NCBI GenBank assembly: GCA_036365515.1
Contig: CM070874.1
Span: 47,243,083 to 47,307,082 of the forward strand
DNA: 64,000 nt
DNA from: Torymus aiolomorphi
Lineage: Eukaryota; Arthropoda; Insecta; Hymenoptera; Torymidae
Direction: 5' to 3'
The notes beneath the pieces were generated by a model. The model did not search any database, was not told the origin of the DNA, and saw only the letters and a program-made list of their open reading frames with translations. Both the position numbers and the translations under genes were made by a program. Positions 1-64,000 of this stretch are shown piece by piece (positions within the stretch are counted from its first letter, which is position 1; each line of letters begins with the position of its first letter).

Positions 1-2275
1 CTGCTGAAGAGAGTGACTTAAAGAGTCGACTTTTCGAATGAGCTCCTGTTCCAGCACCGCCTCATTATATAGGAGCTCTTCTGCGGCGTTCGGCGGCTCG
101 TGTTTCCCCTCTCCGGCAGCTTCGTTCTCATTGGCCAGCTCTTTCCCCACCACCACCACTCCTGCCCTATAGTGGCTCCAGGGTAGTGTGTCGGTGGTTC
201 CAGGCTGTAGGCAGCGTTTGTCGTCATGTGCACTGAGAGCAATTTTCCTCTCTTTCTCAATGTTAATGTTGTGACGACGAGACCTGATGTTTCTTTGCTC
301 TCGAGTGAGGATGACGTTCTCGGGGAGGCACTTCATGTAGTCGTCAGGGGTGATGGTCAGTTTGACTACAGAAGTTTTCACTCCTTTGGCCTTCTTGATG
401 GGCTTTTGATTCTGTACTTTCACGCTGTACATTTTACTCCGCAGCCCGATGAATTCCAGCATGATCTCGCCGTTGCACTCGTCCTTCATCAAGCCGACGA
501 TTTTCTTATTGGCACGAGGCATGTTGAACGGATTAATTTCAGGATAGTCTGATGTGTCGAACTCGTGAATGTCCTGTCGCATCACGTCGTACACGTTAAC
601 ACCTGTAACTTCATAAATCAGACTATCCGTATCGGTGAATAGCAACTTGCCTCTGTCTCCTACACGATCTCGCATATAGTCGTAGTGGAACCTGTACACT
701 AGCATTTTCGACAGATCCAGAACTGACAATCCAATGTAGATTGGCTTTCTTATGCAGATCTCCGTCCGCAAGAGCTGCACTGCGACGAGATTTTCGTCAA
801 AAATGTCAGAGCTATGAAAATTGGGCCGTGCGATTAGTGCTTCAGCTCCATAGCGGCCTTTCCATTTGTTGACTAGCTTCACGTCAACGCGTTTCCTCTC
901 GTTTTCCATCGTTTTGCCATACACAGCGTTGTTAAAAAGTTTGAACAGCATTTTCTCAAACTCGTTCTTGGCTTCCTTCCTTTTTGCGCTGTTCAAGTCA
1001 ATATATTTTTTAAGCCAAGGACTTTGCTGGAATTTTATGGCTCGATGGACTTTGACGAGAACCAGGCCATGTTTCAAGGCCTGTTTGAGTGCTCGATAGT
1101 GAAGCACATAACGAGTTTTATCGTGAAGCGTCGTCATGAGTTTATACTGTTTTGAGCCAGGAGGCGCCATGTGCTCGGCACAGAACGGCAGATCTTTATG
1201 GGCATCGTGTAGAGTTTCAGGATACTTCAGATCCACCTCGACAAAGTATCCAAAGTCAGAGTCATCGGGGATGTCGAAGAAGTTTGGTTCGTTGACATTC
1301 TCCACCCACTTGAAGCCACCATAGGGCAAGGGCTCAGTCATTGCCCAGCCGTACCAATTATTCACGTCGAAATACATCAAATATTTTTCATCCTCGTTAG
1401 CGTTGTAGCCATCCTTCATGTACGGGTTGTTCGCTTTCGCATATCGATTGCAACATAGACTTATTCCTCCCCGTATGCCGCGCTCGATGAACAGCAACAT
1501 GTCAACATCGGTAAGAAGCTCAAGTTTGATCTGTAAAAAATTATTTTTTATTAAATACGAATTTTTAATTAAATTTAAGTGAATCACACCTGTGTATTTT
1601 TTAGCATGGCATCCCAAGTCAATCCGAGCGTAGTGTAATAATGGGCAGGATCCAACTCATAAGCTTCAAGGCAGTTATTTCTAAAGTTCTCAAAAACTTC
1701 AGCCAATAGAATAACGTCTGTCTTGAGATATAAGTCAGAGTACTGGCCTAAATCTTGAATACTGAAACTCTGCCAAACGTTCTGAGCATGCTCATAATCC
1801 TCATCGCTGATATGAGCATCATATAAGCTGCTGAAGAAGTCATCTTTCGAAGGGAGATTTGACTCGTTTAGCTTTTCGAACGATGAGACATAGTCGTATG
1901 GAAAAACTCCTTTTCTTTTCAATAGAGAAATTTGTTCATCGCATAGACCATCTTCTTTAAACATTCGCTCCAGAGTATTCAGTTTCTTCAAATATGATGC
2001 CAACTTGTCTAGCGATGAAGCCATAAACTTGAACGAGTCGATGAATCGCAGGTTTATATCTGTACCTTCCACAAACTTTGTAAAAGATATGTATTTCTCT
2101 TTTGTTTGTGGAAGTAGCGAAACTCGTCCTGGGAAGCATGTCGCTATTTCTCTTATAAAGAGATGAGAATCGTATCCGCTCAAGTTGTGAAAAACTATGG
2201 GGATCGTTCTCGAGTCCTGGAAGCCGAGGTTACATTTGCTATGTGCAGGTCCACGATATCTGTAATAATTTTTAG

Positions 2276-2348
<73 letters not shown>

Positions 2349-4050
2349 ATACTCACTTTCCCGTGAAATGGCAATGATCACGTACTCTCTGGTCTTCCTT
2401 GGTAAATGGCTTCTCGCAAATATGACATAGACGTGCTCCGTCAAACATAATTTTTTCGAGCGATGTCAGGTTATTCATAGGCTTTGGATTTTTGTACGAG
2501 TCATTCAATTTCACAGCCAGAGAGTGAAGACTCTGCACAAACCATTTGGCTGGAGATTCGGCTTGTTCATCCTCTTGTCTATAACTCTTATATTCCGAGA
2601 GAGAGTCATCGTAACTACATTTAATTAAGAAGCCCACACTAAATGGCACGTGATGCTGGTAAGCTCGTTCATCATCAATCACAGGCTTCAATATACATTC
2701 AAAGTCAGCGTATATAACGAACGGCACACGATTCTTAAAACCAAAGTTCGTAAACTCCAGAGTATTGTTTTTTACAGATGGAAGTGTAATTTTGCACTGA
2801 TTAATTTTTTTACAGTCAATCATATGCTTCATTTGTTTTTCTTCAGTTATGAAATAGTGCAGACATCGATCACAGATGAAAGTTTTATGTCCGTGAGAAG
2901 ATAGCTGTTTACTGCACAGTCTTGATAAATCTTTTATCCACACATAATGGAATTTAAATTCGATGGTAACATCATCGAGAGACGAGCCATCTTCATCTTC
3001 GTCAACATAATTATTTTCGACAAGTAGTAAATTGATGTGTTTTTCTTTTTTCGCAGCTGTCAAATGTCTTGGTAAGACATCAAACGCTTCTCTTTGTTTC
3101 TTCTTTAAATAATACACATTCACAGAAATGTCATTTTGTTTCTCAAACTTACCAACTTTTCTCGGATCAACTGGAAAATCGATTCCCTTAAAGTTAAGAT
3201 CGTTTTTATATGATAAATAGCTCACCATTCGATTGGCATGTGTCTTAGCAGGGTGTAGTGCCGATAGAATTGCCCATTTAAAACATTCATCGTCCTCATT
3301 TTCTACGTTTATACATGCCTTCTTATTCTTGATGAATGGCGGCAAATCAATGTATGAGCTCCCTCTCATCGGATTAAACTTGTAAATATTAACAACTAGA
3401 TTTAAAATTGATTTAAGCGACCAGCCTGACTCGCGCTCTTGGAATTCTTCCATATCCGTGTCGATTGGATTTTGCACGTTCATTACAAACCACTCATTCA
3501 AGTCCGTAGTCGAATATATCGGAGCTGTTTTCGTGTTGAAATATTTTATTTCAATTGTCTCTTCACCATCTTTAACTATCGCGTACTCGGCCGCTAACAC
3601 TGTGTTCACTTTCAAAGGTTCTTTAAGAATTTCACTCACTTTTTCAATAAATTCCTTCTGAGCGTCTCTCATAAACGTTAATAAATCCAGGTGTCTACGG
3701 TTTGTGATGACACCCGTCTTTATTCTATTCTCGAAAGCTGATTCAACATCATCCCAGCTTACTGAGGGGCCATTTTCACTCGCTTGTAGTCCGGCACCCA
3801 CCACTCGATGTTCACTCAACAAGCGTAGAACACTTTTTATGAGCACGATGGCAGCTTGCAGTTTTTGCCTATCAGCCACTGTTAAGTCCGTCACCTCAGG
3901 CCTACGCTGAGCCAATTTTTCAGCTTCGACTAGAGCGTTGCGACCAAGCGTAATCCAATTATTCACATCATCTTGATCAGCAGCACCACTTAAAGCAAAC
4001 CGATACGATTTACATAGCATGAGAGCGGTATTTTTGAAATGCTGAGGCAT
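1..4050 (-). CDS. Polinton/Maverick-type family B DNA polymerase, spliced, 3' end beyond window
   Basis: Replicative family B DNA polymerase of the protein-primed type found in Polinton/Maverick and adintovirus-like elements. I read three exons, complement(2357..4050, 1590..2259, 1..1530), giving 1298 codons still open at the left edge. The introns are 97 bp (2260-2356, GTGAGT...ACAG, containing the TC repeat) and 59 bp (1531-1589, GTGTGA...ACAG); both joins keep frame. Exonuclease motifs are visible: ADFE (Exo I), HNLSGYD (Exo II) and YLKTD (Exo III). Polymerase motifs follow: DVNNWYG (motif A region), NNAVYG (motif B) and DTDS (motif C). A Cys/His segment (CHICEKPF...HCHFTGK) precedes the first intron. 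The N-terminal part of about 350 residues is typical of arthropod copies. The start at 4050 (MPQHF) is the first ATG. No internal stop was seen, so the copy may be recent. Capsid and integrase genes, if present, would lie to the left. Confidence 0.88.
2260..2356 (-). other. PolB intron 1 with (TC)n microsatellite
   Basis: Donor GTGAGT at 2356-2351 and acceptor TTACAG ending at 2260. Splicing joins the zinc-finger-like end ...FTGK to YRGPAH, the usual junction in this polymerase family. Most of the intron is a perfect GA/TC dinucleotide run on the + strand (about 2279-2345). Without splicing the repeat would be translated as a Leu-Ser run, so the intron call is well supported. Confidence 0.82.
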
Positions 4051-4286: not shown

Positions 4287-4883
4287 ATGAAGTATATTGT
4301 TGATGTGCAAGGTTTCAAAATTACCTTGAATGAATTCGTCTTCAAGGAAGTAGCCATCATCCCTCTCGAGGAAGATCCTACACCATCGGTTTTTCTATTT
4401 AAACCGCCTTATGCATGGGACAAATTGTTGGAGAAAAATAAGTCAGAAAATCGTTGGCTTGAACAAAATTTCCATGGATTAATGTGGAGAGCAGGCAACA
4501 TCCCATACGATGAACTAAAAAACACTCTAAGTGGTGTACTCTTCGGAGCAGAGATTTATGTAAAGGGTCTGGAGAAAAGTAAATGGTTGAAGAGATTTTT
4601 CCCCGACAAGTAAGCTATTTTTGTTATAAAATTATTTTCATAAAAAAAGTTTTCTCATAATATTTTCTTAATTTTCAGATTAGTTATTAATATCGAGGAT
4701 ATGGGATGCCCTTCGTTGAAAAGTCTACCTGCAGAATCAGTCTCGTGTACCAACCATACTGCTTGTAACTTTCCAGTATGCGCACTTCGAAACGCGCTGG
4801 TCATGAAAAGATGGATGCTCGAGCAGCAGCATATCAAAAACATGAAGGAAATATCAGAATCCTTTCATTTTATGTATATTTGA
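4287..4883 (+). CDS. Conserved 175-aa protein of a PolB-bearing element, two exons, function unknown
   Basis: Two exons, 4287..4609 and 4679..4883 (donor GTAAGC, acceptor TTTCAG), give 175 aa. The start is the ATG after the TATA/initiator pair. The protein begins MKYIVDVQGF and contains NFHGLMW, IYVKGLEKSKWL, CPSLKSL, and a C/H-rich end (CTNHTAC...CALRN). I recall similar small proteins as common uncharacterised entries in arthropod genomes, but could not search. The order of an N-terminal acidic strand, a KGLEK block and a late C-x(n)-H faintly suggests an RNase H-like or DEDD exonuclease fold. The second acidic residue of a D-x-E motif is Q here, so activity should not be assumed. A poly(A) signal AATAAA follows at 4914, unlike the neighbouring stem-loop genes. 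Confidence 0.72.
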
Positions 4884-4913: not shown

Positions 4914-4919
4914 AATAAA
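4914..4919 (+). terminator. Poly(A) signal of the 175-aa gene
   Basis: AATAAA 31 bp after the stop codon, in AT-rich sequence. This gene seems to use ordinary polyadenylation; no histone-type stem-loop follows it. Confidence 0.6.
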
Positions 4920-5077
4920 CATTTTTCTTTTATTAAATTTTGCGGTTATATTTTTTTATCCAAAAAATTTCATTGCATGTTAATAATTATACGTGAAATA
5001 TTAATATATATTATTTAAAAAAATATATGAAATAGTAATAAATGAATATATTTGTTCATATGTTAAAAAATATTGGT

Positions 5078-5093
5078 GGCCCTGAAAAGGGCC
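5078..5093 (-). terminator. Histone-type stem-loop, distal of two behind P1
   Basis: Minus strand reads GGCCCT-TTTC-AGGGCC followed by ACCA: a perfect 6-bp stem with a 4-nt TTTC loop and the flanking ACCA of animal replication-dependent histone mRNAs. It is preceded by CCAATC. Confidence 0.82.
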
Positions 5094-5101
5094 GATTGGA
5101 T

Positions 5102-5117
5102 AGTCCTGAAAAGGACT
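5102..5117 (-). terminator. Histone-type stem-loop, proximal behind P1
   Basis: Minus strand AGTCCT-TTTC-AGGACT, perfect 6-bp stem, three bases after the P1 stop codon and preceded by TTTAATC. Tandem with the 5078 copy. Confidence 0.8.
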
Positions 5118-5119
5118 GA

Positions 5120-5605
5120 TTAAATCGTAAGACGTCGACGAATTCGCCGACGTGGCTCATCATCACCGCTGTCGTCATGAGGTCGCTTCTGCGGCATCTT
5201 CCGCGGTGACATCGTCCCTGAGGAGATGGTGATGCAAAGTGGCGGCGACCCTGACTCGATAACATCAAGCTTCTCCTTAGGTTCTGGAGAGAAGCACGAG
5301 GATCTCAACTCATACTTCTCCAAAAATCCTGGAGAGAAGCAAGAGGGCACTGGCGAGAGCGATGACGGTGGTGACAGCGGCGGCAACACGAGCGGCGAAC
5401 AGTCGGGTAGTTGCTCGACGAAGACTGGCGATGGGTAAGGCAAGCGTTGTGGCGTGAACGCTGGCGACTTGATGGGCGATGATGTAGCCAGCGGCTCCAT
5501 CAACATCGACAGAAACTCTTCGTCGCTATCCATCGCGAGGCCGATCTTCCAATCGAAGTCTGCCTCAGTCCACGTCGTTTCCAGGTTGGTGCTCGATAAG
5601 TCCAT
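5120..5605 (-). CDS. P1: small intronless acidic/Pro-Ser-rich/Arg-tailed protein
   Basis: Encodes 161 aa with no family I recognise. The N-terminus is acidic and hydrophobic (ADFDWKIGLAMDSDEEFL), like an acidic activation domain. The middle, roughly residues 40-115, is rich in Pro and Ser with repeated SP pairs. The C-terminus is strongly basic (RRRIRRRLTI) and could be a nuclear localisation or nucleic-acid-binding tail. A TATA box (minus-strand TATAAAAG at 5648-5641) sits close to the ATG, implying a very short leader. The gene has no intron, and two histone-type stem-loops follow the stop immediately. It diverges from P2. P1 and P2 share the layout of acidic front, Pro-rich middle and Arg-rich end. 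A nuclear regulatory role is inference only. Confidence 0.66.
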   Translation of the reverse strand: MDLSSTNLETTWTEADFDWKIGLAMDSDEEFLSMLMEPLATSSPIKSPAFTPQRLPYPSPVFVEQLPDCSPLVLPPLSPPSSLSPVPSCFSPGFLEKYELRSSCFSPEPKEKLDVIESGSPPLCITISSGTMSPRKMPQKRPHDDSGDDEPRRRIRRRLTI

Positions 5606-5793
5606 GTTAGCGAGTGATAATTACTCGATAGACTGCGTTGCTTTTATAATGAAAGCGCGGACCTACACGACACCTGCTGCGTGGTGGGGGTAAAGAAGTG
5701 TGTGCGCTCTCCCCCTCCACGCCCTCCATTGGAGCAGCTCCTAGGGAGGGTATAAAAAAGCGCGTTCCTCATTGCTCAGCATCATTCGTCGCA
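5606..5793. promoter_or_regulatory. Divergent P1/P2 promoter
   Basis: P1 TATA box on the minus strand at 5641-5648. P2 TATA box TATAAAAAAG at 5751-5760, with a TCAGC initiator-like site at 5776, 25 bp downstream. A CCATTGG (CCAAT-type) element is at about 5727. Leaders of both genes would be short, as in histone genes. Confidence 0.62.
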
Positions 5794-6322
5794 ATGGAGC
5801 CGAAAAAGGAATTTCTCAAAGATCTCCTTGACGACGATTCACTTCAAGAAGCAATTCTTGAAGGATTAGCAGCTTTGGAGGATTGCGTGCCATTTGCTTT
5901 GGAGGAGATACCTGAGCTGTCTTCTCCTCTGGCTTTCAACGCCTGGCTCACGGGCCTTGAGTTGGAAGACGAGGAGGAGCAGCAACGGACATCTTCACCT
6001 CCACCTGCAGTGGAATCGCCTCCGCCACCATACTGCGAGTTGCGAAGGGCCGCATCCTCCTCCTCCTCCAGACCTCGTGATGCTATCACCACCAGCATCG
6101 CCGTTCATGCTATACGACCCGCAAGAACAGCGATATTACGAGGTGCCAGTGGAGCTTCGCACAATTGAACAATTGCCACCGCTGCCTAAGGAGGAAGACG
6201 AAGACGCCGACGATGAGATGGAGGTTGACAAAGACCTTCAGTGCAGACCTCGAAAGTGTCATCGTCACCGTGAAGACAGGTCGCCTTCGCCATCTCGCCG
6301 TCGTCGTCGTCTCGCCATGTAA
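5794..6322 (+). CDS. P2: small acidic then Arg-rich protein, reading frame interrupted
   Basis: Starts at the ATG 18 nt after the initiator-like site. The first frame gives a Leu/Asp/Glu-rich N-terminus (KEFLKDLLDDDSLQEAILEG) and a Pro-rich stretch with PPPPY. The remainder that looks coding lies one frame over, ending with a Lys/Arg-rich tail (SRRRRRLAM) at 6320-6322. The switch lies between about 6030 and 6075, near a run of TCC triplets. It could be a disabling 1-nt indel, a programmed +1 shift, or two overlapping ORFs; the first frame alone stops at 6168. Layout matches P1 (acidic front, Pro-rich middle, Arg tail). Seven histone-type stem-loops follow. Function unknown. Confidence 0.55.
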
Positions 6323-6324
6323 TC

Positions 6325-6340
6325 GGTCCTTTTCAAGACC
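6325..6340 (+). terminator. Histone-type stem-loop 1 of 7 behind P2
   Basis: GGTCCT-TTTC-AAGACC, one C/A mismatch in the stem, three bases past the P2 stop and preceded by AATC. Confidence 0.68.
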
Positions 6341-6351
6341 AAACTCCAACC

Positions 6352-6367
6352 AGCCTTTTTTAAGGCT
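6352..6367 (+). terminator. Histone-type stem-loop 2 of 7
   Basis: AGCCTT-TTTT-AAGGCT, perfect 6-bp stem with a 4-nt loop. Confidence 0.68.
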
Positions 6368-6376
6368 AAACCAACC

Positions 6377-6392
6377 GGCCTTTTTGAAGGCC
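6377..6392 (+). terminator. Histone-type stem-loop 3 of 7
   Basis: GGCCTT-TTTG-AAGGCC, perfect 6-bp stem, 25 nt after the previous one. Confidence 0.68.
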
Positions 6393-6401
6393 AAGTCAAT
6401 C

Positions 6402-6417
6402 GGCCCTTTTCAGGGCC
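6402..6417 (+). terminator. Histone-type stem-loop 4 of 7 (canonical)
   Basis: GGCCCT-TTTC-AGGGCC preceded by CAATC: identical to the P1 distal stem-loop and to the animal histone consensus GGCYCTTTTMAGRGCC. Confidence 0.82.
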
Positions 6418-6463
6418 CTATATTTTTTTATAATGTATGAACATAATTATTTTTAAAATAATC

Positions 6464-6479
6464 AGCTCTTTTCAGAGCT
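6464..6479 (+). terminator. Histone-type stem-loop 5 of 7
   Basis: AGCTCT-TTTC-AGAGCT, perfect stem, preceded by AATC, in AT-rich sequence. Confidence 0.74.
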
Positions 6480-6507
6480 AAAATTATTATTTATTTTTAT
6501 TATAATC

Positions 6508-6523
6508 AGCTCTTTTCAGAGCT
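6508..6523 (+). terminator. Histone-type stem-loop 6 of 7
   Basis: Exact copy of stem-loop 5 with its AATC and AAAATTA flanks, 44 nt further on. Confidence 0.74.
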
Positions 6524-6555
6524 AAAATTATTACTTATTTATTTATACTATAATC

Positions 6556-6571
6556 AGCTCTTTTTAGAGCT
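6556..6571 (+). terminator. Histone-type stem-loop 7 of 7
   Basis: AGCTCT-TTTT-AGAGCT. About 40 nt downstream an AATAAA is followed by a purine-rich GCGAGAGAGAGAA. The latter could act like a histone downstream element, but it may simply be microsatellite. Confidence 0.68.
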
Positions 6572-6689
6572 TAAAAAATATATAATATATTTAAAATTTT
6601 ATTATATAATAAAGCGAGAGAGAGAATCAGCGCATACATCTTTGTGCAAAAGCGAGAGAAAATATACGCACTTCTATAAATTCGGATAT

Positions 6690-7020
6690 CTGCACACGCG
6701 CGTACACACACACACACGCACACACACACACACGCACACGCATACACGCACAGACACGCACGCACTCACACATACACGCACGCACACGCACGCACACGCA
6801 TATACGCATGCATACACGCATACACGCACACACACACACATACGCATCCACACAAACATACACATACACACACATGCGCGTGCACACATGCACGCATACA
6901 CGCATACACACACACACACATACACGCACCCACACAAACATACACACACACACATACACACATGCGCGCGCACACATGCACGCACACGCATGCACACACA
7001 CAAACATACACACATGCGCG
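6690..7020. repeat. (CA)n/(CGCA)n microsatellite
   Basis: More than 300 bp of CA, CGCA and TACA repeats between the P2 stem-loops and P3. Long apparent ORFs here on both strands only translate the repeat. Confidence 0.9.
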
Positions 7021-7093
7021 CGCGCGCCCAGAGAGAGAGATAATTAATATTTTTATTTATGATCGGATGATCGGGAATGGAAGGGAAGGTATA

Positions 7094-7176
<83 letters not shown>
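7094..7176. repeat. (TA)n then (TG)n microsatellite
   Basis: An uninterrupted TA run followed by a TG run of about 58 bp, downstream of the P3 stem-loop. A minus-strand AATAAA lies at 7184-7179. Confidence 0.9.
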
Positions 7177-7181
<5 letters not shown>

Positions 7182-7216
7182 TTATTAATATTTTGTTTCA
7201 CGTGATAAAAATTAGT

Positions 7217-7232
7217 GACCCTGAAAAGGGCC
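7217..7232 (-). terminator. Histone-type stem-loop behind P3
   Basis: Minus strand GGCCCT-TTTC-AGGGTC, a 6-bp stem with one G-U pair, preceded by CAATC and 15 nt after the P3 stop codon. Confidence 0.76.
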
Positions 7233-7246
7233 GATTGAAAAAAAAA

Positions 7247-7738
7247 CTAGTTGTCGTCACCGTCGTCGTCATCGTCGTTATCGTCATCGTCGTCATCGTC
7301 GTCGTCGTCGTCGTCTTTGTCTTTGTTTTTGTCCTTCTCGTCTTTGTCGCTGTCGTCTTGGTCGTTGTCAAACAATCGCCTCTTGACACGGTCCATCGGC
7401 TTCTTCAGGACCGGCTGCTGAGGAAGCCGCCTCCGAGTTGTCGCTGGATGAGCCGGTATCTCCAGGATCCCGTTGACGCGCTCTCGCTCCCAACGAGCTA
7501 CGCTGGCCTCGCCAACAGCGCTTAGCCCTACTCGATAGGGCGACCTCGGCCCGTTCGCCAGCACTGTTGGACGTGGTTGACATCCGGAGGGAAGTGGATG
7601 ACAGCTGCCGGCGTATAAAACCACTACCCTTGGGTTTGGCGGCTTAGGCGCTGATGGTGGTTGCGGTGGTGGCTGCGCATGTCGTCGACGATTGCGGGCA
7701 AGGCGCTGACGCTCAGAGCGCTGTCGCTTACGTCCCAT
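7247..7738 (-). CDS. P3: small basic protein with poly-Asp tail
   Basis: Encodes 163 aa with no family I recognise. It begins with a basic block (MGRKRQRSERQRLARNRRR), then a Pro-rich linker, a middle region of no clear type, KRRLF, and an almost pure Asp tail of about 30 residues with some Lys and Asn. The basic head plus poly-acidic tail resembles histone chaperones or nucleoplasmin-type tails only in composition. A TATA box (minus-strand ATATAAAG, 7791-7784) lies about 30 bp from a TCAGT initiator (7761-7757). The ATG is about 20 nt further on, so the leader is short. There is no intron, and a single histone-type stem-loop follows the stop. The Asp tail is encoded by a GAC/GAT repeat and may vary in length. 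Confidence 0.66.
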   Translation of the reverse strand: MGRKRQRSERQRLARNRRRHAQPPPQPPSAPKPPNPRVVVLYAGSCHPLPSGCQPRPTVLANGPRSPYRVGLSAVGEASVARWERERVNGILEIPAHPATTRRRLPQQPVLKKPMDRVKRRLFDNDQDDSDKDEKDKNKDKDDDDDDDDDDDDNDDDDDGDDN

Positions 7739-7800
7739 CTTGCTTGATGAAACGCGACTGATGCTCTTGCTCGCGCGTTCATTCTTTATATGCGCATAGC
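7739..7800 (-). promoter_or_regulatory. P3 core promoter
   Basis: Minus-strand TATA box ATATAAAG (7791-7784) and the arthropod initiator TCAGT (7761-7757) at the expected 25-30 bp spacing, about 20 bp upstream of the P3 ATG. Confidence 0.66.
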
Positions 7801-7910
7801 GACCTCCACCGCGCGCCCTATCACCTATGCGTGTGCGCGCAGACGCACCAGCGCGCGTAAAGGAGGAGAGGGGAGAGAGAGAATATATTTCTTACGTTAA
7901 AAAAAATAGT

Positions 7911-7926
7911 AGCCCTTACAAGGACT
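7911..7926 (-). terminator. Diverged histone-type stem-loop ending the hairpin transcript
   Basis: Minus strand AGTCCT-TGTA-AGGGCT, 6-bp stem with one T-G pair and a loop differing from TTTC. It is preceded by TTTAAATC, closely matching the flank of the P1 proximal stem-loop. Confidence 0.58.
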
Positions 7927-7984
7927 GATTTAAAACGTCCTCAGAGGAGAAATCGCTCAAAATAATTGCTCAAAATAATTCAAC

Positions 7985-8055
7985 TACTTTTTTCATATTG
8001 TTGCGGTTATCACGGGCTAAACAGCCCGAAGCACATCGCAACAATGAAAAAAGTA
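7985..8055 (-). ncRNA. Hairpin 1 of 8
   Basis: Arms TACTTTTTTCAT(AT)TGTTGCG and its complement around an apical CGGGCT-GTTT-AGCCCG hairpin (minus sense). One 2-nt bulge. ATTGTTGCG here pairs with CGCAACAAT, where other copies pair ATCG with CGAT. Confidence 0.62.
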
Positions 8056-8132
8056 ATACAGCGGTTACTTGCGCGTGAAAGAGAAAAAAGAGACTGCATA
8101 ATAGTATGCGCGCGATAGCGTGAATACTTTGC

Positions 8133-8215
8133 CTGCATTACTTTTAATATTGATGTGGATATCCTAGGCTAATCAGCCGGAAGCATCCCACAACAATAAT
8201 AAAAAAATAATTCAG
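8133..8215 (-). ncRNA. Hairpin 2 of 8
   Basis: Most diverged stem. ATGTGG pairs with CCCACA instead of the TTGCG/CGCAA of other copies, and the loop keeps the GGATATC...GGAAGC frame. Outer bases CTGxATTA pair across the ends. Confidence 0.55.
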
Positions 8216-8333
8216 ACATAACTACATATCACGTACACGCACACATACATGCATACATAACCTCGCGCACGAAGAGAATATCAACGCGAGTTTCGTTGCA
8301 TGTATGCGCGCGCGAGAGAGAGAGCGATAGCGT

Positions 8334-10739: not shown

Positions 10740-11641
10740 GGGGGACTGTTCTTAAATGATATACGATAAAATGTTTATCACCGCGTAATACAGGTATGTT
10801 TTTAGGACGAATAGTACCATTTAGGACAAAATTTTGATTTGATGTGACATATACTGTGGTAAAACGATTATGTCGCATCGCAACGCATATCGCTATAAGG
10901 GTAATTTTATATTACGCCATAGCGATAAGTTTTGTTTGTTTGTACACTTTGAATGTGGAAACGTTGTGCAATAAAAAATTCTTCGCTATGGGGCAATAGA
11001 AAATTACCCTTAGCGATATGCATTACCATGCAACATAATCGTTTCTCCACAGTATGCTCTCTAAAGTTGAATTAGTGAAAATGCTCCTCCCATTAAATTA
11101 GTAGAAGAAACTACTAATTTATTAGTTAATATTCACTATTTCGTTAGTAGTTTTTTAACCCATTAAATTAGTAGAAAAAACTACTAATTTATTTGTGAAT
11201 ATTCAGTATTTCATTAGTAGTTTTTTTAAAGACTACTAATGAAATAGTAAATATTCACTAATAAATTACTATTTTTTTCTACTAATCTAATGGGTGGAGC
11301 AATTTTCACTAATTCAACTTTAGAGAATATACTGTGGTAAAACGATTATTTGCATCGCAACGCATATCGCTAAGGGTAATTTTGTATTGCCCTATAGCGA
11401 AGAATTTTTTATTGCATAACGTTTCGATATACAAAGTGTAAAAACAAACAAAACTTATCGCTATGTCGTGATATAAAATTACCCTTAGCGATATGCGTTG
11501 CGATGCGACATAATCGTTTTACCACAGTATATGTCACATCAAATCAGAATTTTGTCCTAAATGGTACTATTCGTCCTAAAAACGTACCTGTATTACGCGG
11601 TGATAAACATTTCATCGTATATCATTTAAGAACAACCCCCC
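10740..11641. mobile_element. Foldback element family A, copy 1
   Basis: About 0.9 kb and almost entirely palindromic. The left arm begins GGGGGACTGTTCTTAAATGA and the right arm ends with its complement, TCATTTAAGAACAACCCCCC. The arms include CGCATCGCAACGCATATCGC, and the centre is a nest of ACTACTAAT repeats. No coding capacity. A second copy is at 17114. No TSD longer than 3 bp is convincing (CAG on both sides). Confidence 0.82.
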
Positions 11642-12173: not shown

Positions 12174-12911
12174 GGGGGGGGGGGTATGGTTAATTCGTAA
12201 AAAATGGGTCATTTTTAATGATTTTTATATTCGCTCCAGTAAATGAAAATTTATTTTAATATAAAGTATACGATTCAGTAACTATTGTACAATATTCTGT
12301 GAAATTTTCATTGAAAAATATTAAAAATTAAGCCGTTGGCAGCAATTCTCCGAAGGTGCCTTGACAAAATGTTGTTTTGCGGTGGACAGCATATCTCAGC
12401 ACTGGATCGTCTGAAATGAAAAATTGAAACAGATATCGTTAGATAAGCACATTCTCGAGGTAACAACGAGAGGGATTTTTTTTTTCGATTTTTGAATTTT
12501 TGGTGAGATAAAAACAAAACTTTGACATAAAAACACCGATTTTTGCTAAAAAAAAATTGACATATTTGTTACTGTAAAATTGTTAATAATTAAAAAAAAA
12601 AAAAGCTCTCGTTGTTACCTCGAGAATGTGCTTATCTAACGATATCTGTTTCAATTTTTAATTTCAGACAATCCAGTGCTGAGATATGCTGTCCACCGCA
12701 AAACAACATTTTGTCAAGGCACCTCCGCAGAATTGCTGCCAACTGCTTAATTTTTAATATTTTTCAATGAAAATTTCACAGAATATTGTACAATAGTTAC
12801 TGAATCGTATACTTTTTATTAAAATAAATTTTCATTTACTGGAGCGAATATAAAAATCATTAAAAATGACCCATTTTTTTACGAATTAACCATACCCCCC
12901 CCCCCCCCCCC
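12174..12911. mobile_element. TTAA-flanked foldback element (Kolobok- or piggyBac-like ends)
   Basis: A 738-bp palindromic element with arms of about 330 bp. It begins with a G-run then TATGGTTAATTCG and ends with the complement and a C-run. It is flanked by TTAA at 12170-12173 and 12912-12915, the target choice of Kolobok and piggyBac transposons. The G-run tip favours Kolobok. Non-coding. Confidence 0.75.
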
Positions 12912-15138: not shown

Positions 15139-16161
15139 ATGAGTTCTCCGATTTCTCCGTTATTTGCTGACATTGTAATGGATGATTTAGAAAAGTCGTG
15201 TTTAGAGACATTAAAAAACATACATAATTGCACCCCTCTTTTTTACTACAGATATGTAGATGGTACAATTATTTGTGTAAAAAAAGAACACATAGAGGAT
15301 GTCATTAACACTTTCAATTTATATCATAAAAATCTACAGTTCATATATGAATTAGAACAAAATAATAGTATAAACTTTTTGGGTATAACGATCATCAAAA
15401 AGAAAAATAGATTAATCACAAATTGGTTTCAAAAATCAACATCATCGGGGAGAGTAATCAACTTTTCTTCAAATCATCCAATACAGCAAAAGAAAAACAT
15501 TATTTATAACCTAGTCGACCGAGCAATACTTTTGTCACACAAAAGATTCCATAAGAACAACTTGCGAAAAATCCAAAGGACGTTACTAAACAATAATTAC
15601 CCATGGGACTTTATCCAAAAAAACATCCGATACCGTAAAATATCTTTGAAACACAAACGCAAAAAAAACCAAGACAATTTTAAAATTCTTCCAAAAATGC
15701 AGCTACCATATATAAAGAATAATTATAAAAAATTATCGGCAATTTTGAAACAATACAATATTATTTCCATCCCGTTAGTGAAAAAGAGTCTTAACTCGAT
15801 TATAAAATTAGGCAAGGATGTAACTAAAAAATGGGACCGAACTAACATTGTATACAAATTTAGATGTAAAAATTGTCCGGCGGCGTACATAGGAGAAACA
15901 AAAAGAACTCTAAAAAAACGAATCAATGAACACAGAAATAACAAAAACGAAGATTCGGTAGTTACCATGCACCAAAACTCGTTTAACCATCGATTTGATT
16001 GGGAGGGAGCGGTAATTCTGGATAATGAGAGCAATTATAAAAAAAGATTAATGTCCGAAATGATGCACATAAAATGTCATAACAATAACATAAATAAAAA
16101 AGAAGACATATTCACTCTGAATAAGTCATATTTTCCGGTATTAAGGAAATTCAAATGCTAA
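15139..16161 (+). CDS. Penelope-like RT C-terminal part plus GIY-YIG endonuclease
   Basis: A 340-aa ORF; homologous sequence extends about 20 residues upstream of the ATG (FNNEYYRQIFGT) before a stop. The RT part has SSPISPLFADIVMDDLE and the catalytic box YRYVDGT, where the family has YVDD, so the second catalytic Asp is lost. The C-terminal third carries the GIY-YIG nuclease start (IVYKFRCKNC...AAYIGETKRTLKKRINEH) with the Cys pair typical of Penelope elements. The upstream RT fingers and N-terminal region are absent. A dead, 5'-truncated copy. Confidence 0.85.
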   Translation: MSSPISPLFADIVMDDLEKSCLETLKNIHNCTPLFYYRYVDGTIICVKKEHIEDVINTFNLYHKNLQFIYELEQNNSINFLGITIIKKKNRLITNWFQKSTSSGRVINFSSNHPIQQKKNIIYNLVDRAILLSHKRFHKNNLRKIQRTLLNNNYPWDFIQKNIRYRKISLKHKRKKNQDNFKILPKMQLPYIKNNYKKLSAILKQYNIISIPLVKKSLNSIIKLGKDVTKKWDRTNIVYKFRCKNCPAAYIGETKRTLKKRINEHRNNKNEDSVVTMHQNSFNHRFDWEGAVILDNESNYKKRLMSEMMHIKCHNNNINKKEDIFTLNKSYFPVLRKFKC

Positions 16162-61473: not shown

Positions 61474-64000
61474 TCAAATCACTCCCAACGCTTTTCTATT
61501 TTTCATAAACTTCGTCTTTTCTAAACTCTTTGTTAATATATCTGCTAGATTAAATTCTGAGTCTATTTTTACAATGTCAATTATTCCATTTTCGTAGTTT
61601 TCATTAACGTAGTGATACTGCACTTCAATGTGCTTTGAGTTTTTTGTAAAGTTACCAAATTTTGCGATTGCAATTGCGCCTGAGTTATCTTCATACATTT
61701 TAATTGGTTTATCAAATTTTACGTTAAATGATTCGCATAATAAATTTTTAATGAACAAGATTTCTGTCACTGCTTCGGACATAGCAGTATATTCTGCAAA
61801 AGTAGAACATTTTGTTACTGTACTTTGTTTATGCGTTTTCCAATAAATTAAGTTTCCATATAATCTAATTACAAAACCTGTTGTAGATTTTCTATCTACA
61901 TTATCTCCTGCATAGTCAGAATCTACCATACAATCTAATACTTCGCTGTCAACATTATCGTAGTACGTTAGCTTTAAATCTTTAGTCTTAAATAAGTATT
62001 TCAAAATTCTCAATGCATATTTAAAGTGTCTTTGGTCATAACAACTTTGGTAACGACTTAAATAATTAACGCTATATGTTATATCTGGCCTTGTGCCTGT
62101 ACTGATATATAATAATTCGCCGATTAAATTTCTGTATTTTATTCTTTCATCTATTTCATTTGCTTGTTCTAATTTTAGATTACTCTCCATTGGAGTATCG
62201 TATAATTTTGCATTTTCAAGGTTGTATTTTATAGCCAAAGATTCGATATATTTCGTTTGACTTAAAGTCATTTTACCTCTGTCTTCACTATATTCAATAT
62301 CGATGCCAATATATTGGTTAATTTTGCCCAAATCTTTCATTATAAATCTTTCCATTAAACTTGCTTTTACTTTGTTTATTTTATTTTTGTCTTTGCAACA
62401 AATCAAGAGATCATCTACAAAAACTAGTATATATATTGAATCTTTGCTTGTATTATTTACATATAGACAGCAATCATAGTTACTTCTTACAAAATTTAAT
62501 TTCTCGACATATTCGCTGAAACAATCATGCCATGCTCTAAGACTTTCTCTGAGACCATACAGAGCCTTTTGCAATTTGCAAACTTTATTGTCTCCAGTTT
62601 CGTAACCTTTTGGTTCATTAATGTATACTTCTGATTTTACATTGCCATTTAAAAATGCCGTTTCAACATCCATTTGTTCTATAAACAAATTATTTTTACA
62701 ACTGTAAGACAATAAAATTTTCAACGTTTGCATTTTACCTACAGGTGAATAAACATTTTCAACATATTCTTTCTGTTGTAATCTTCTTACAACTAATCTC
62801 GCTTTATAAGTATCGTTATTTTTCTTTTTATAAACCCATTTAACGTCAATGACTTTTTTATCTTTTGGCCTTTCAACAATTTGCCATGTGTGATTTTTCT
62901 TTAAACTGTTTATTTCGGAATCCATTGCTATTTGCCATTGTTTATATTCGCTGGAGTTTATCGCCTCCTCGAATGTATTTGGTACATTTGCATCAATATA
63001 ATTTACATAAATAAAATGAGTAACTGGATTTCCGTATCTATTTACTGGACTTTTCTTTCTTTGAGATTTTCGCGGTATTGTTAGTCTATCTCTGTTTTTG
63101 TTGTCTTCGTTATCAGATTCGTTATCGTTTACGTTATTCGCATCGATTAATTCAATTTGCTCTCCTCTACTTTCCCCGAAGGTCGTAGTAGAGTGAGAAG
63201 GATATTCAGAACCGCTGTTGTTCGTTTCATTTAATTCTACGTTAATTTCAGAATCACTATTTTCGCTTTCTAAACAGATTAACTTTATACTTTCTTCTAT
63301 TACATCAACATGCCTTGCAGTAATTACTTTATTATTAACTAAGACTTTATAACCGTTTTCAACGTATCCTACTAATACACCTAGTTGTGCCTTATTATCC
63401 CACTTACTTTTCCTTAGAGCTTCCGGAACTCTTACGAAGACTCTACTTCCGTAAATTTTTAAATTTTTAACATTTGGCTTTATCCCAAAAAATATTTCAT
63501 AAGGAGTTTTATTCTCTGACGTATTTGCAATTGTTCGATTTTTTAAGTAAGCTACCGTTTTCATTATTTCCGGCCAATATCTTCTATGAATTTTTGCTTC
63601 CCTCATTAAGCATCTACCTATATCCATTGCTGATCTATTATATCTCTCCGCTACTCCATTTAATTCGTGGACGTAGGGTGGACATGTCAATAATTCTATT
63701 CCTTTTGATTTTATAAAATCGAGAATTTCGCGATTTAGATATTCTCTACCGTTATCACATTGCACCCTTTTAATTCTCTTATTAAATTTATTTTCTACTA
63801 AATTTACGAATTCAATAAAACAACTTGCAGTTTCTGACTTATTCTTAATGCAAAAGATTCTGGTACATTTGCTATAATCATCAATAAATGTAAGAAAATA
63901 TTTTTCTCCACCATAGCCAGTAGTACTATGTGGACCATTTAAATCAGTGTGTATTAATTCTAGGATTTCTTTCGTTTTTGTTCGATTATTTTCAAACGGT
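61474..64000 (-). CDS. Ty1/copia Pol polyprotein, 5' end beyond window
   Basis: An open frame reaching the right edge, over 840 codons. Integrase core: IHTDLNGP, VQCDNGREY and NGVAERYNR give D, D and E. This is followed by the GKxxxxxL-type chromodomain-less linker, the RT (MDVETAFLNG, KALYGLRES, and FVDDLL as the catalytic box), and RNase H (VDSDYAGD, EDNSGAI, KHIEVQYH, ADILTK). Gag and protease lie to the right of the window. No stop or frameshift was seen, so the copy may be young. An LTR follows downstream at 61374. Confidence 0.9.
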   Translation of the reverse strand, partial: PFENNRTKTKEILELIHTDLNGPHSTTGYGGEKYFLTFIDDYSKCTRIFCIKNKSETASCFIEFVNLVENKFNKRIKRVQCDNGREYLNREILDFIKSKGIELLTCPPYVHELNGVAERYNRSAMDIGRCLMREAKIHRRYWPEIMKTVAYLKNRTIANTSENKTPYEIFFGIKPNVKNLKIYGSRVFVRVPEALRKSKWDNKAQLGVLVGYVENGYKVLVNNKVITARHVDVIEESIKLICLESENSDSEINVELNETNNSGSEYPSHSTTTFGESRGEQIELIDANNVNDNESDNEDNKNRDRLTIPRKSQRKKSPVNRYGNPVTHFIYVNYIDANVPNTFEEAINSSEYKQWQIAMDSEINSLKKNHTWQIVERPKDKKVIDVKWVYKKKNNDTYKARLVVRRLQQKEYVENVYSPVGKMQTLKILLSYSCKNNLFIEQMDVETAFLNGNVKSEVYINEPKGYETGDNKVCKLQKALYGLRESLRAWHDCFSEYVEKLNFVRSNYDCCLYVNNTSKDSIYILVFVDDLLICCKDKNKINKVKASLMERFIMKDLGKINQYIGIDIEYSEDRGKMTLSQTKYIESLAIKYNLENAKLYDTPMESNLKLEQANEIDERIKYRNLIGELLYISTGTRPDITYSVNYLSRYQSCYDQRHFKYALRILKYLFKTKDLKLTYYDNVDSEVLDCMVDSDYAGDNVDRKSTTGFVIRLYGNLIYWKTHKQSTVTKCSTFAEYTAMSEAVTEILFIKNLLCESFNVKFDKPIKMYEDNSGAIAIAKFGNFTKNSKHIEVQYHYVNENYENGIIDIVKIDSEFNLADILTKSLEKTKFMKNRKALGVI

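Follow-up and report, generated by a model that had tools for sequence, protein, structure and literature searches.

Virophages imitate the transcript-end signal of the virus on which they depend, and the H4 gene of bracoviruses is a viral histone gene. Among metazoan mRNAs, those of the histones are described in a passage of PMC12775136 as the sole class without poly(A), and excerpts from PMC7026596 place the cleavage 4–5 nt after the loop and give the histone downstream element (HDE) a role in pairing with U7. Here we describe a stretch of 64,000 nt from the genome of Torymus aiolomorphi (Hymenoptera, Torymidae; GenBank assembly GCA_036365515.1, contig CM070874.1, forward strand, positions 47,243,083 to 47,307,082), hereafter called the window, in which three small non-histone genes, P1, P2 and P3, and one apparent non-coding unit are followed by stem-loops of the histone type. 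The window quite probably holds part of a multi-copy Polinton-type element whose small genes adopted the histone 3'-end signal of the host for processing by SLBP and U7. We propose such an adoption because loop, flanks, spacing and downstream element match the host's own histone loci and follow homologous genes that are under constraint.

Between positions 5078 and 7926 we found 11 histone-type stem-loops, where the original prediction, made from the letters of the window alone, had placed them. Nine are strict, that is, they have six pairs, a 4-nt loop and histone-type letters; two are imperfect, with one mismatched pair at 6325–6340 (plus strand) and a TGTA loop at 7911–7926 (minus strand). 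In positions 5001–8000 the strict scan returned these nine, where 300 Markov versions had 0.01 on average and never more than one; in the whole window it returned 12, where 60 versions had a mean of 1.15 and at most 5. Exact copies of GGCCCTTTTCAGGGCC are located at 5078–5093 (minus) and 6402–6417 (plus), and one copy with a single mismatch at 7217–7232 (minus). Several exact 16-mers had been claimed, but these two are the only ones in the window; with up to three mismatches there are five matches, a number reached in none of 100 shuffles. As predicted, the second P1 loop is preceded by CAATC and followed by ACCA. P1 is followed by two loops, P2 by seven, P3 by one and the fourth unit by one. 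Ten of the 11 are in sense orientation to a gene, the remaining one being located 3' of a stretch without a clear frame. The Rfam model RF00032 (Histone3) passed its gathering score once in the window (5054–5098, minus strand, 38.3 bits) and gave four further matches below it, to one P2 loop, the P3 loop and two accessory loops (bit scores in Table 1). An origin of the loops by microsatellite drift was rejected because they are located outside the CA/GT arrays.

The window's own 1.08-Gb genome served as reference. A Pfam histone model, with 150 of its 239 candidates scored, had at least 150 matches in it, most of them in clusters on a single contig. From 35 histone-gene loci (L010–L044) we collected 79 distinct sequences downstream of loops, the loops not being assigned to individual genes. 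These host loci share CAATC-GGCCCTTTTCAGGGCC-ACCA: CAATC or TAATC precedes the loop in 65 of the 79 sequences, and ACCA or ACAA follows it in 62. In 78 of the 79 sequences the loop is followed, at a distance of 12–16 nt, by an element resembling ACGTTTGAATAA, with an information content of 9.3 bits; judged by where it lies and by what is described of the pathway, it is presumably the U7-pairing HDE. With RF00032, 14 loops in ten out of ten histone loci scored 34.4–38.6 bits. At P1 and P2 the loop letters, the flanks, the downstream element and its spacing are those of the host loci. Together with the SLBP of the host, described below, this lends support to the earlier suggestion that the gene cluster may borrow the host's histone mRNA pathway.

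For the downstream element a scoring matrix was built from the host loops alone, with a threshold score of 5, which 66 of 78 host loops reach; the HDE had played no part in the choice of loci. The elements following P1 stem-loop 2 and P2 stem-loop c (Table 1) have p values of 0.007 and 0.0012 against shuffles. The one after the fourth loop scores 6.4 (p 0.04), this loop having been entered one base out of register. Among the distinct GGC[CT]CT-type loops of the small-gene module, the window included, 20 of 34 reach the threshold, at offsets of 12–16 as in the host, compared with 1.8% of shuffled module sequences; the corresponding p of 2e-26 overstates independence, as the rows are related copies. 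Since the accessory AG..CT loops reach this score in only one case out of 30, the comparison suggests that each gene has one loop as its processing site, the others being additions.

Matches to the pattern GGCYCTTTTCAGRGCC number 1354 in the genome (659 + 695), and there are none to its reversed control. We read 98 of 100 listed sites, all from one contig (C1) and in coordinate order, a non-random sample, and classified them by their upstream sequence. In this sample 42 sites are located 3' of P1/P2/P3-type or similar genes (L076, L109 and L113 being loosely assigned singletons) and 26 are located 3' of a gene of a diverged Polinton-type family, so that 68 in total follow Polinton-type genes. 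The other 30 lie within DDE-type transposons (24 in Tc_C, four in Tc_7, two at L055). As the loci were fetched by the exact loop, the presence of the main loop in them is no test. Free of this selection are P1 loop 1, kept in nine of 11 aligned P1-type 3' ends, P2 loop 0, found in seven out of seven aligned P2 copies of its type (window included, where it is imperfect), and a loop 3' of P3 in L007. RF00032 exceeded its gathering score for 16 loops in 12 of 18 element loci, at 34.5–39.1 bits, a range that overlaps that of the host. A lack of stem-loops in all related loci had been named beforehand as one of the outcomes that would refute the prediction; instead, loops stand 3' of homologous genes in many copies, though these loci were selected by the loop.

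As predicted, the proteins are not histones: a Pfam search up to an E-value of 1 gave no histone match for P1, both P2 frames and P3, and for P1 no match of any kind. Of the three small genes of the prediction, P1 and P3 are each a single intact frame. The window copy of P2 is broken up, its coding sequence falling into two frames that overlap; in four sampled copies P2 is one frame of 169–182 aa. For the window copy of P1 the ratio of nonsynonymous to synonymous substitution rates (dN/dS) was 0.20–0.22 against four other copies (dS 0.46–0.51), and 0.13–0.22 over diverged pairs (dS 0.46–0.66). For P3 the values were 0.21–0.30 against four copies and 0.21–0.35 over diverged pairs (dS 0.62–1.20), and for P2 0.13–0.55 over diverged pairs. 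Near-identical pairs gave 0.14–1.78, from very few changes. The proteins P1 to P3 are under purifying selection.

These rates bear on the explanation that the loops are passive remnants of histone 3' ends within the elements, without any present function. The loop sequence is identical to that of current host histone loops, a capture would account for the shared flanks, and the loci were picked by an intact loop. However, the HDE, which was outside the locus choice, is kept in the 20 module loops mentioned above at the synonymous divergences just given for diverged P1 and P3 pairs; loops occur with several gene families and transposon groups; and the second P2 loop, taken at a single alignment position, opens with an A-T pair in L045, L046 and L050 and with a G-C pair in L048 and L049. 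We regard passive remnants as unlikely.

Two exons at C5:3728057-3728418, matching with 55.4 and 44.0 bits, encode the RNA-binding domain of SLBP in the host genome; the match of the second exon crosses a stop codon, presumably beyond the end of the exon. The protein matches solved SLBP chains with an E-value of 2.7e-30. Under the proposed adoption, transcripts of P1, P2, P3 and probably of the fourth, non-coding unit would end in the replication-dependent histone 3'-end signal of the host, consisting of the SLBP-type stem-loop and, at P1 and P2, the U7-type downstream element. Host SLBP would bind the loop, the U7 small nuclear ribonucleoprotein would pair with the downstream element, and the transcript would be cut 4–5 nt after the loop. 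TATA boxes were recognized by eye 34–52 nt 5' of the start codons in the window, and the predicted outcome is short mRNAs that are driven from these boxes, carry no poly(A) and are produced in S phase, when SLBP is abundant. Tandem loops that lack a downstream element are probably extra SLBP sites or back-up ends. Introns were recognized by inspection in the PolB gene and in the gene at 4287–4881, which also has poly(A)-signal hexamers (4914, 4932 and 5037). Two 3'-end pathways thus appear to share the output of the element, the accessory proteins forming the S-phase class.

Several observations weigh against an adoption of the host signal. The downstream element of the window's P3 does not reach significance (Table 1), 14 of the 34 distinct module loops stay under score 5, and P2 is broken in the window copy. 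Poly(A)-signal hexamers are found 30–190 nt 3' of the P1, P2 and P3 loops; such a hexamer is also present within 250 nt of 51 of 85 host loops. In element loci selected by the exact loop the invariance of the main loop is by construction, and the sample covers copies with a loop. Six of the 18 element loci gave no RF00032 match above gathering (L051, L054, L055, L058, L078, L110); both of the transposon loci tested belong to these six. In the diverged Polinton family 0 of 9 and in Tc_C 0 of 5 sequences have an HDE-like site that reaches score 5. U7 small nuclear RNA was not found by Rfam, a result that is uninformative, as 65 of 349763 candidates were scored and no control matched. The covariation within the 11 window loops (nine distinct) speaks for the adoption. 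In 98% of cells the stem is paired, compared with 9–71% in slid structures, and both partners have changed in four of the six stem pairs; the covariation score is 0.61, against 0.34 in shuffles, none of 500 of which attained it. However, the count of pairs changed on both sides was equalled by 45 of 500 shuffles and that of further pair types by all 500, and nine of the 11 loops in this count came from a filter demanding pairing.

The lack of HDE-like sites in the diverged Polinton family and in Tc_C is also what might be expected if the loops were DNA palindromes for a role at the DNA level, such as binding of an element protein, recombination or replication, their likeness to histone loops being incidental. 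The loop of L073, located inside 122-bp inverted repeats, would suit such a role as well. In L058 (Tc_C), on the other hand, the loop is outside the 600-bp inverted repeats and follows the transposase stop codon by 29 nt. The loops are sense-oriented at gene 3' ends, the module has the flanks of the host and an HDE at host spacing, the TTTC loop is asymmetric and changes in the stem are compensated. We consider this DNA-level explanation quite improbable.

Regarding the transposons, the loop is located 29 nt past the stop codon in ten Tc_C loci with a frame of at least 100 aa. That Tc_C loops are parts of inverted repeats was rejected for L058, the only copy with long repeats found; in L002, L003, L006 and L008 (3 kb each) no inverted repeats holding the loop were detected. 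The DDE_3 match in L058 (E 7.6e-5) is under the cut-off, and L055 has weak helix-turn-helix (HTH) matches alone, at E 0.012 and above. Score 5 is reached by two of three distinct sequences in Tc_7 and by one of two at L055. Two or three groups of DDE-type transposons (L058, L055, L073 and related loci) bear the loop, located shortly past the transposase stop codon or, in L073, inside the inverted repeats. In L057, from the diverged Polinton family, a protease-like frame (PF00770, E 0.0056) is under the cut-off. A further variant occurs in tandem on the minus strand of L051 and L053: these loops have T-A as their outer pair (TGCTCT..AGAGCA), and some are followed by TGGAACAAA near the loop and outside the host HDE spacing. 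More broadly, the host signal might in this genome have become a regulatory device shared by selfish DNA of different kinds. Its users would include two or more diverged Polinton-type families, several families of accessory genes, the genes of DDE-type transposases and the apparent non-coding unit with its miRNA-like hairpins, and together they would form a poly(A)-independent S-phase regulon of mobile elements, tied to host DNA replication. We consider this possible, at just short of an even chance; the families beyond the module are the weak part of this wider claim.

For the fourth unit, the predicted ncRNA was found in so far as a minus-strand stretch without a clear frame ends in the loop at 7911–7926; the picture is altered by two paralogous hairpins upstream of this loop, which resemble precursors of microRNAs (miRNAs; 7975–8065 and 8130–8220, minus strand). 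Relatives of the hairpins exist in L045, L048, L049 and L050; the fourth loop is kept in the first three of these loci, and L050 has three related loops. Hairpins and loop may constitute a primary miRNA transcript with a histone-type 3' end, although hairpin A folds better on the plus strand. Matches to miRNA families within a CA-repeat were rejected as low-complexity and far under their gathering scores.

The neighbouring genes point to a Polinton-type element. The middle piece of the PolB gene matches PF03175 (E 0.00044; 19.7 bits, under the cut-off of 25.8). Its 565-aa piece at 2353–4050 gave no PolB match in Pfam, but has matches of 86–95% in seven other loci; in L051 a further match covers 17 aa at the edge of the locus. 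In eight of the ten larger (5.5 kb) module loci, both PolB and the 4287 gene adjoin the module, if PolB in L051 is counted from that edge match alone; neither does so in L049 and L054. The first exon of the 4287 gene is 92–98% identical in eight module loci and 27% over 103 aa in L057. Searches of IMG/VR found no relatives of two PolB pieces, P1 and P3, and a degenerate loop pattern gave one contig there (L009).

In P1 and P2 proline-directed S/T sites are about twofold or more in excess over shuffles. RxLF motifs (KRRLF, RKRLF, RRRLF), which we take to resemble cyclin-docking sites, are present in five of six P3, four of four P2-like, one of eight P2 and none of five P1 proteins, as well as in one of two transposases; carriers are the window P3 and L045, L046, L047, L049, L050, L054, L078, L079, L109 and L110. 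Several are at the very C-terminus, and shuffled proteins have one in 1–7% of trials. The RB-binding motif LxCxE was flagged in none of 29 proteins, a set that did not include the broken window P2. The S/T excess and the RxLF motifs are compatible with an S-phase theme, but no proof of it.

Table 1. Positions, strands and properties of features in and next to the small-gene module of the window
Feature	Position	Strand	Remarks
PolB-like gene, Polinton-type	1..4050	-	introns by inspection; runs past the left end of the window
Element gene	4287..4881	+	conserved; intron by inspection; AATAAA at 4914; without histone-type loop (contrast)
P1, 161 aa	5120..5605	-	Ser/Pro-rich, Arg-rich C-terminus; single intact frame
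P1 TATA box	5641..5648	-	consensus by eye; TATA-like boxes similarly placed in copies inspected
P1 stem-loop 1	5102..5117	-	2 nt past stop codon; without own HDE; strict scan
P1 stem-loop 2	5078..5093	-	exact GGCCCTTTTCAGGGCC, CAATC before, ACCA after; Rfam 38.3 bits
P1 HDE-like element ACATATGAACAA	5052..5063	-	14 nt after stem-loop 2; score 9.6
P2 TATA box	5751..5760	+	consensus by eye
P2 gene	5794..6322	+	two overlapping frames, 5794-6168 and 6080-6322
P2 stem-loop 0	6325..6340	+	one mismatched pair; 2 nt past stop codon
P2 stem-loop a	6352..6367	+	strict scan
P2 stem-loop b	6377..6392	+	strict scan
P2 stem-loop c	6402..6417	+	exact GGCCCTTTTCAGGGCC; Rfam 27.5 bits
P2 HDE-like element ATGTATGAACAT	6433..6444	+	15 nt after stem-loop c; score 11.4
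Accessory stem-loop AGCTCT..AGAGCT	6464..6479	+	Rfam 18.8 bits; without HDE
Accessory stem-loop AGCTCT..AGAGCT	6508..6523	+	Rfam 22.9 bits; without HDE
Accessory stem-loop	6556..6571	+	without HDE; poly(A)-signal hexamer 36 nt further
P3, 163 aa	7247..7738	-	basic N-terminus, KRRLF motif, acidic tail; single intact frame
P3 TATA-like box	7784..7790	-	consensus by eye
P3 stem-loop	7217..7232	-	14 nt past stop codon; Rfam 23.5 bits
P3 weak HDE-like element CACGTGAAACAA	7193..7204	-	score 3.1, p 0.18, not significant
Fourth stem-loop	7911..7926	-	3' end of apparent non-coding unit
miRNA-precursor-like hairpin A	7975..8065	-	z -5.7 on minus strand, -8.4 on plus strand
miRNA-precursor-like hairpin B	8130..8220	-	z -4.9 on minus strand, -4.2 on plus strand

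Further away in the window, a plus-strand frame at 15139–16161 has a GIY-YIG domain (PF01541, E 9.8e-6) and, by eye, reverse-transcriptase-like sequence; it is probably a Penelope-like element. Nested long inverted repeats at 10740–11641 and 12199–12879 (156 nt, 97% complementary; 295 nt, 96% complementary) probably belong to other transposons. A 717-aa frame at 61474–63627 on the minus strand looks by eye like a copia-type polyprotein.

None of the matches listed in our literature search concerned 3' ends of the histone type in Polintons or in transposons, most subscription papers being outside its coverage. In the collection searched there was no paper that pairs "polinton" with "histone stem-loop", or with "histone genes" and "stem-loop", and in passages of PMC11071296 the term "stem-loop" occurs 0 times. 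If the proposed adoption is true, non-histone genes of a mobile element on the histone pathway would break the rule of a sole poly(A)-less class and would be natural non-histone substrates of SLBP and U7. An integrated virus-like element would then be tying its gene expression to S phase, and RNA-seq with poly(A) selection would be predicted to miss these transcripts.

Compared with the 3' end of replication-dependent histone mRNAs, the locus agrees in the 6-bp stem, the 4-nt loop, the flanks, the downstream element and its spacing, and in its short uninterrupted frames. It differs in that the genes are non-histone, that its loops are often arranged in tandem, a number of them having different stem letters and lacking an HDE, and that processing is here a prediction. 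With Polintons/Mavericks and adintoviruses it shares the PolB-like gene adjoining the module and an adenovirus-protease-like frame found in a divergent copy, both under the Pfam cut-off. A hairpin at the transcript end also recalls mimiviruses and virophages, and the hairpins might act like the palindromic ones of mimiviruses, with poly(A) added by viral enzymes and not through the host histone pathway. To our knowledge, the hairpins of mimiviruses do not belong to the histone type, and the sequence, flanks and HDE found here are those of host histone-gene loci. Hairpin-coupled ends are known in giant viruses, where, according to the abstract of PMC4402537, the hairpin leads to poly(A) addition; the signal here is the histone signal of an animal host, which makes an action of this kind highly implausible. 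Viral histone genes such as bracovirus H4 provide another link between insect viruses and histone biology, but there the protein itself is a histone, whereas in the element described here it is the mRNA end alone that is histone-like.

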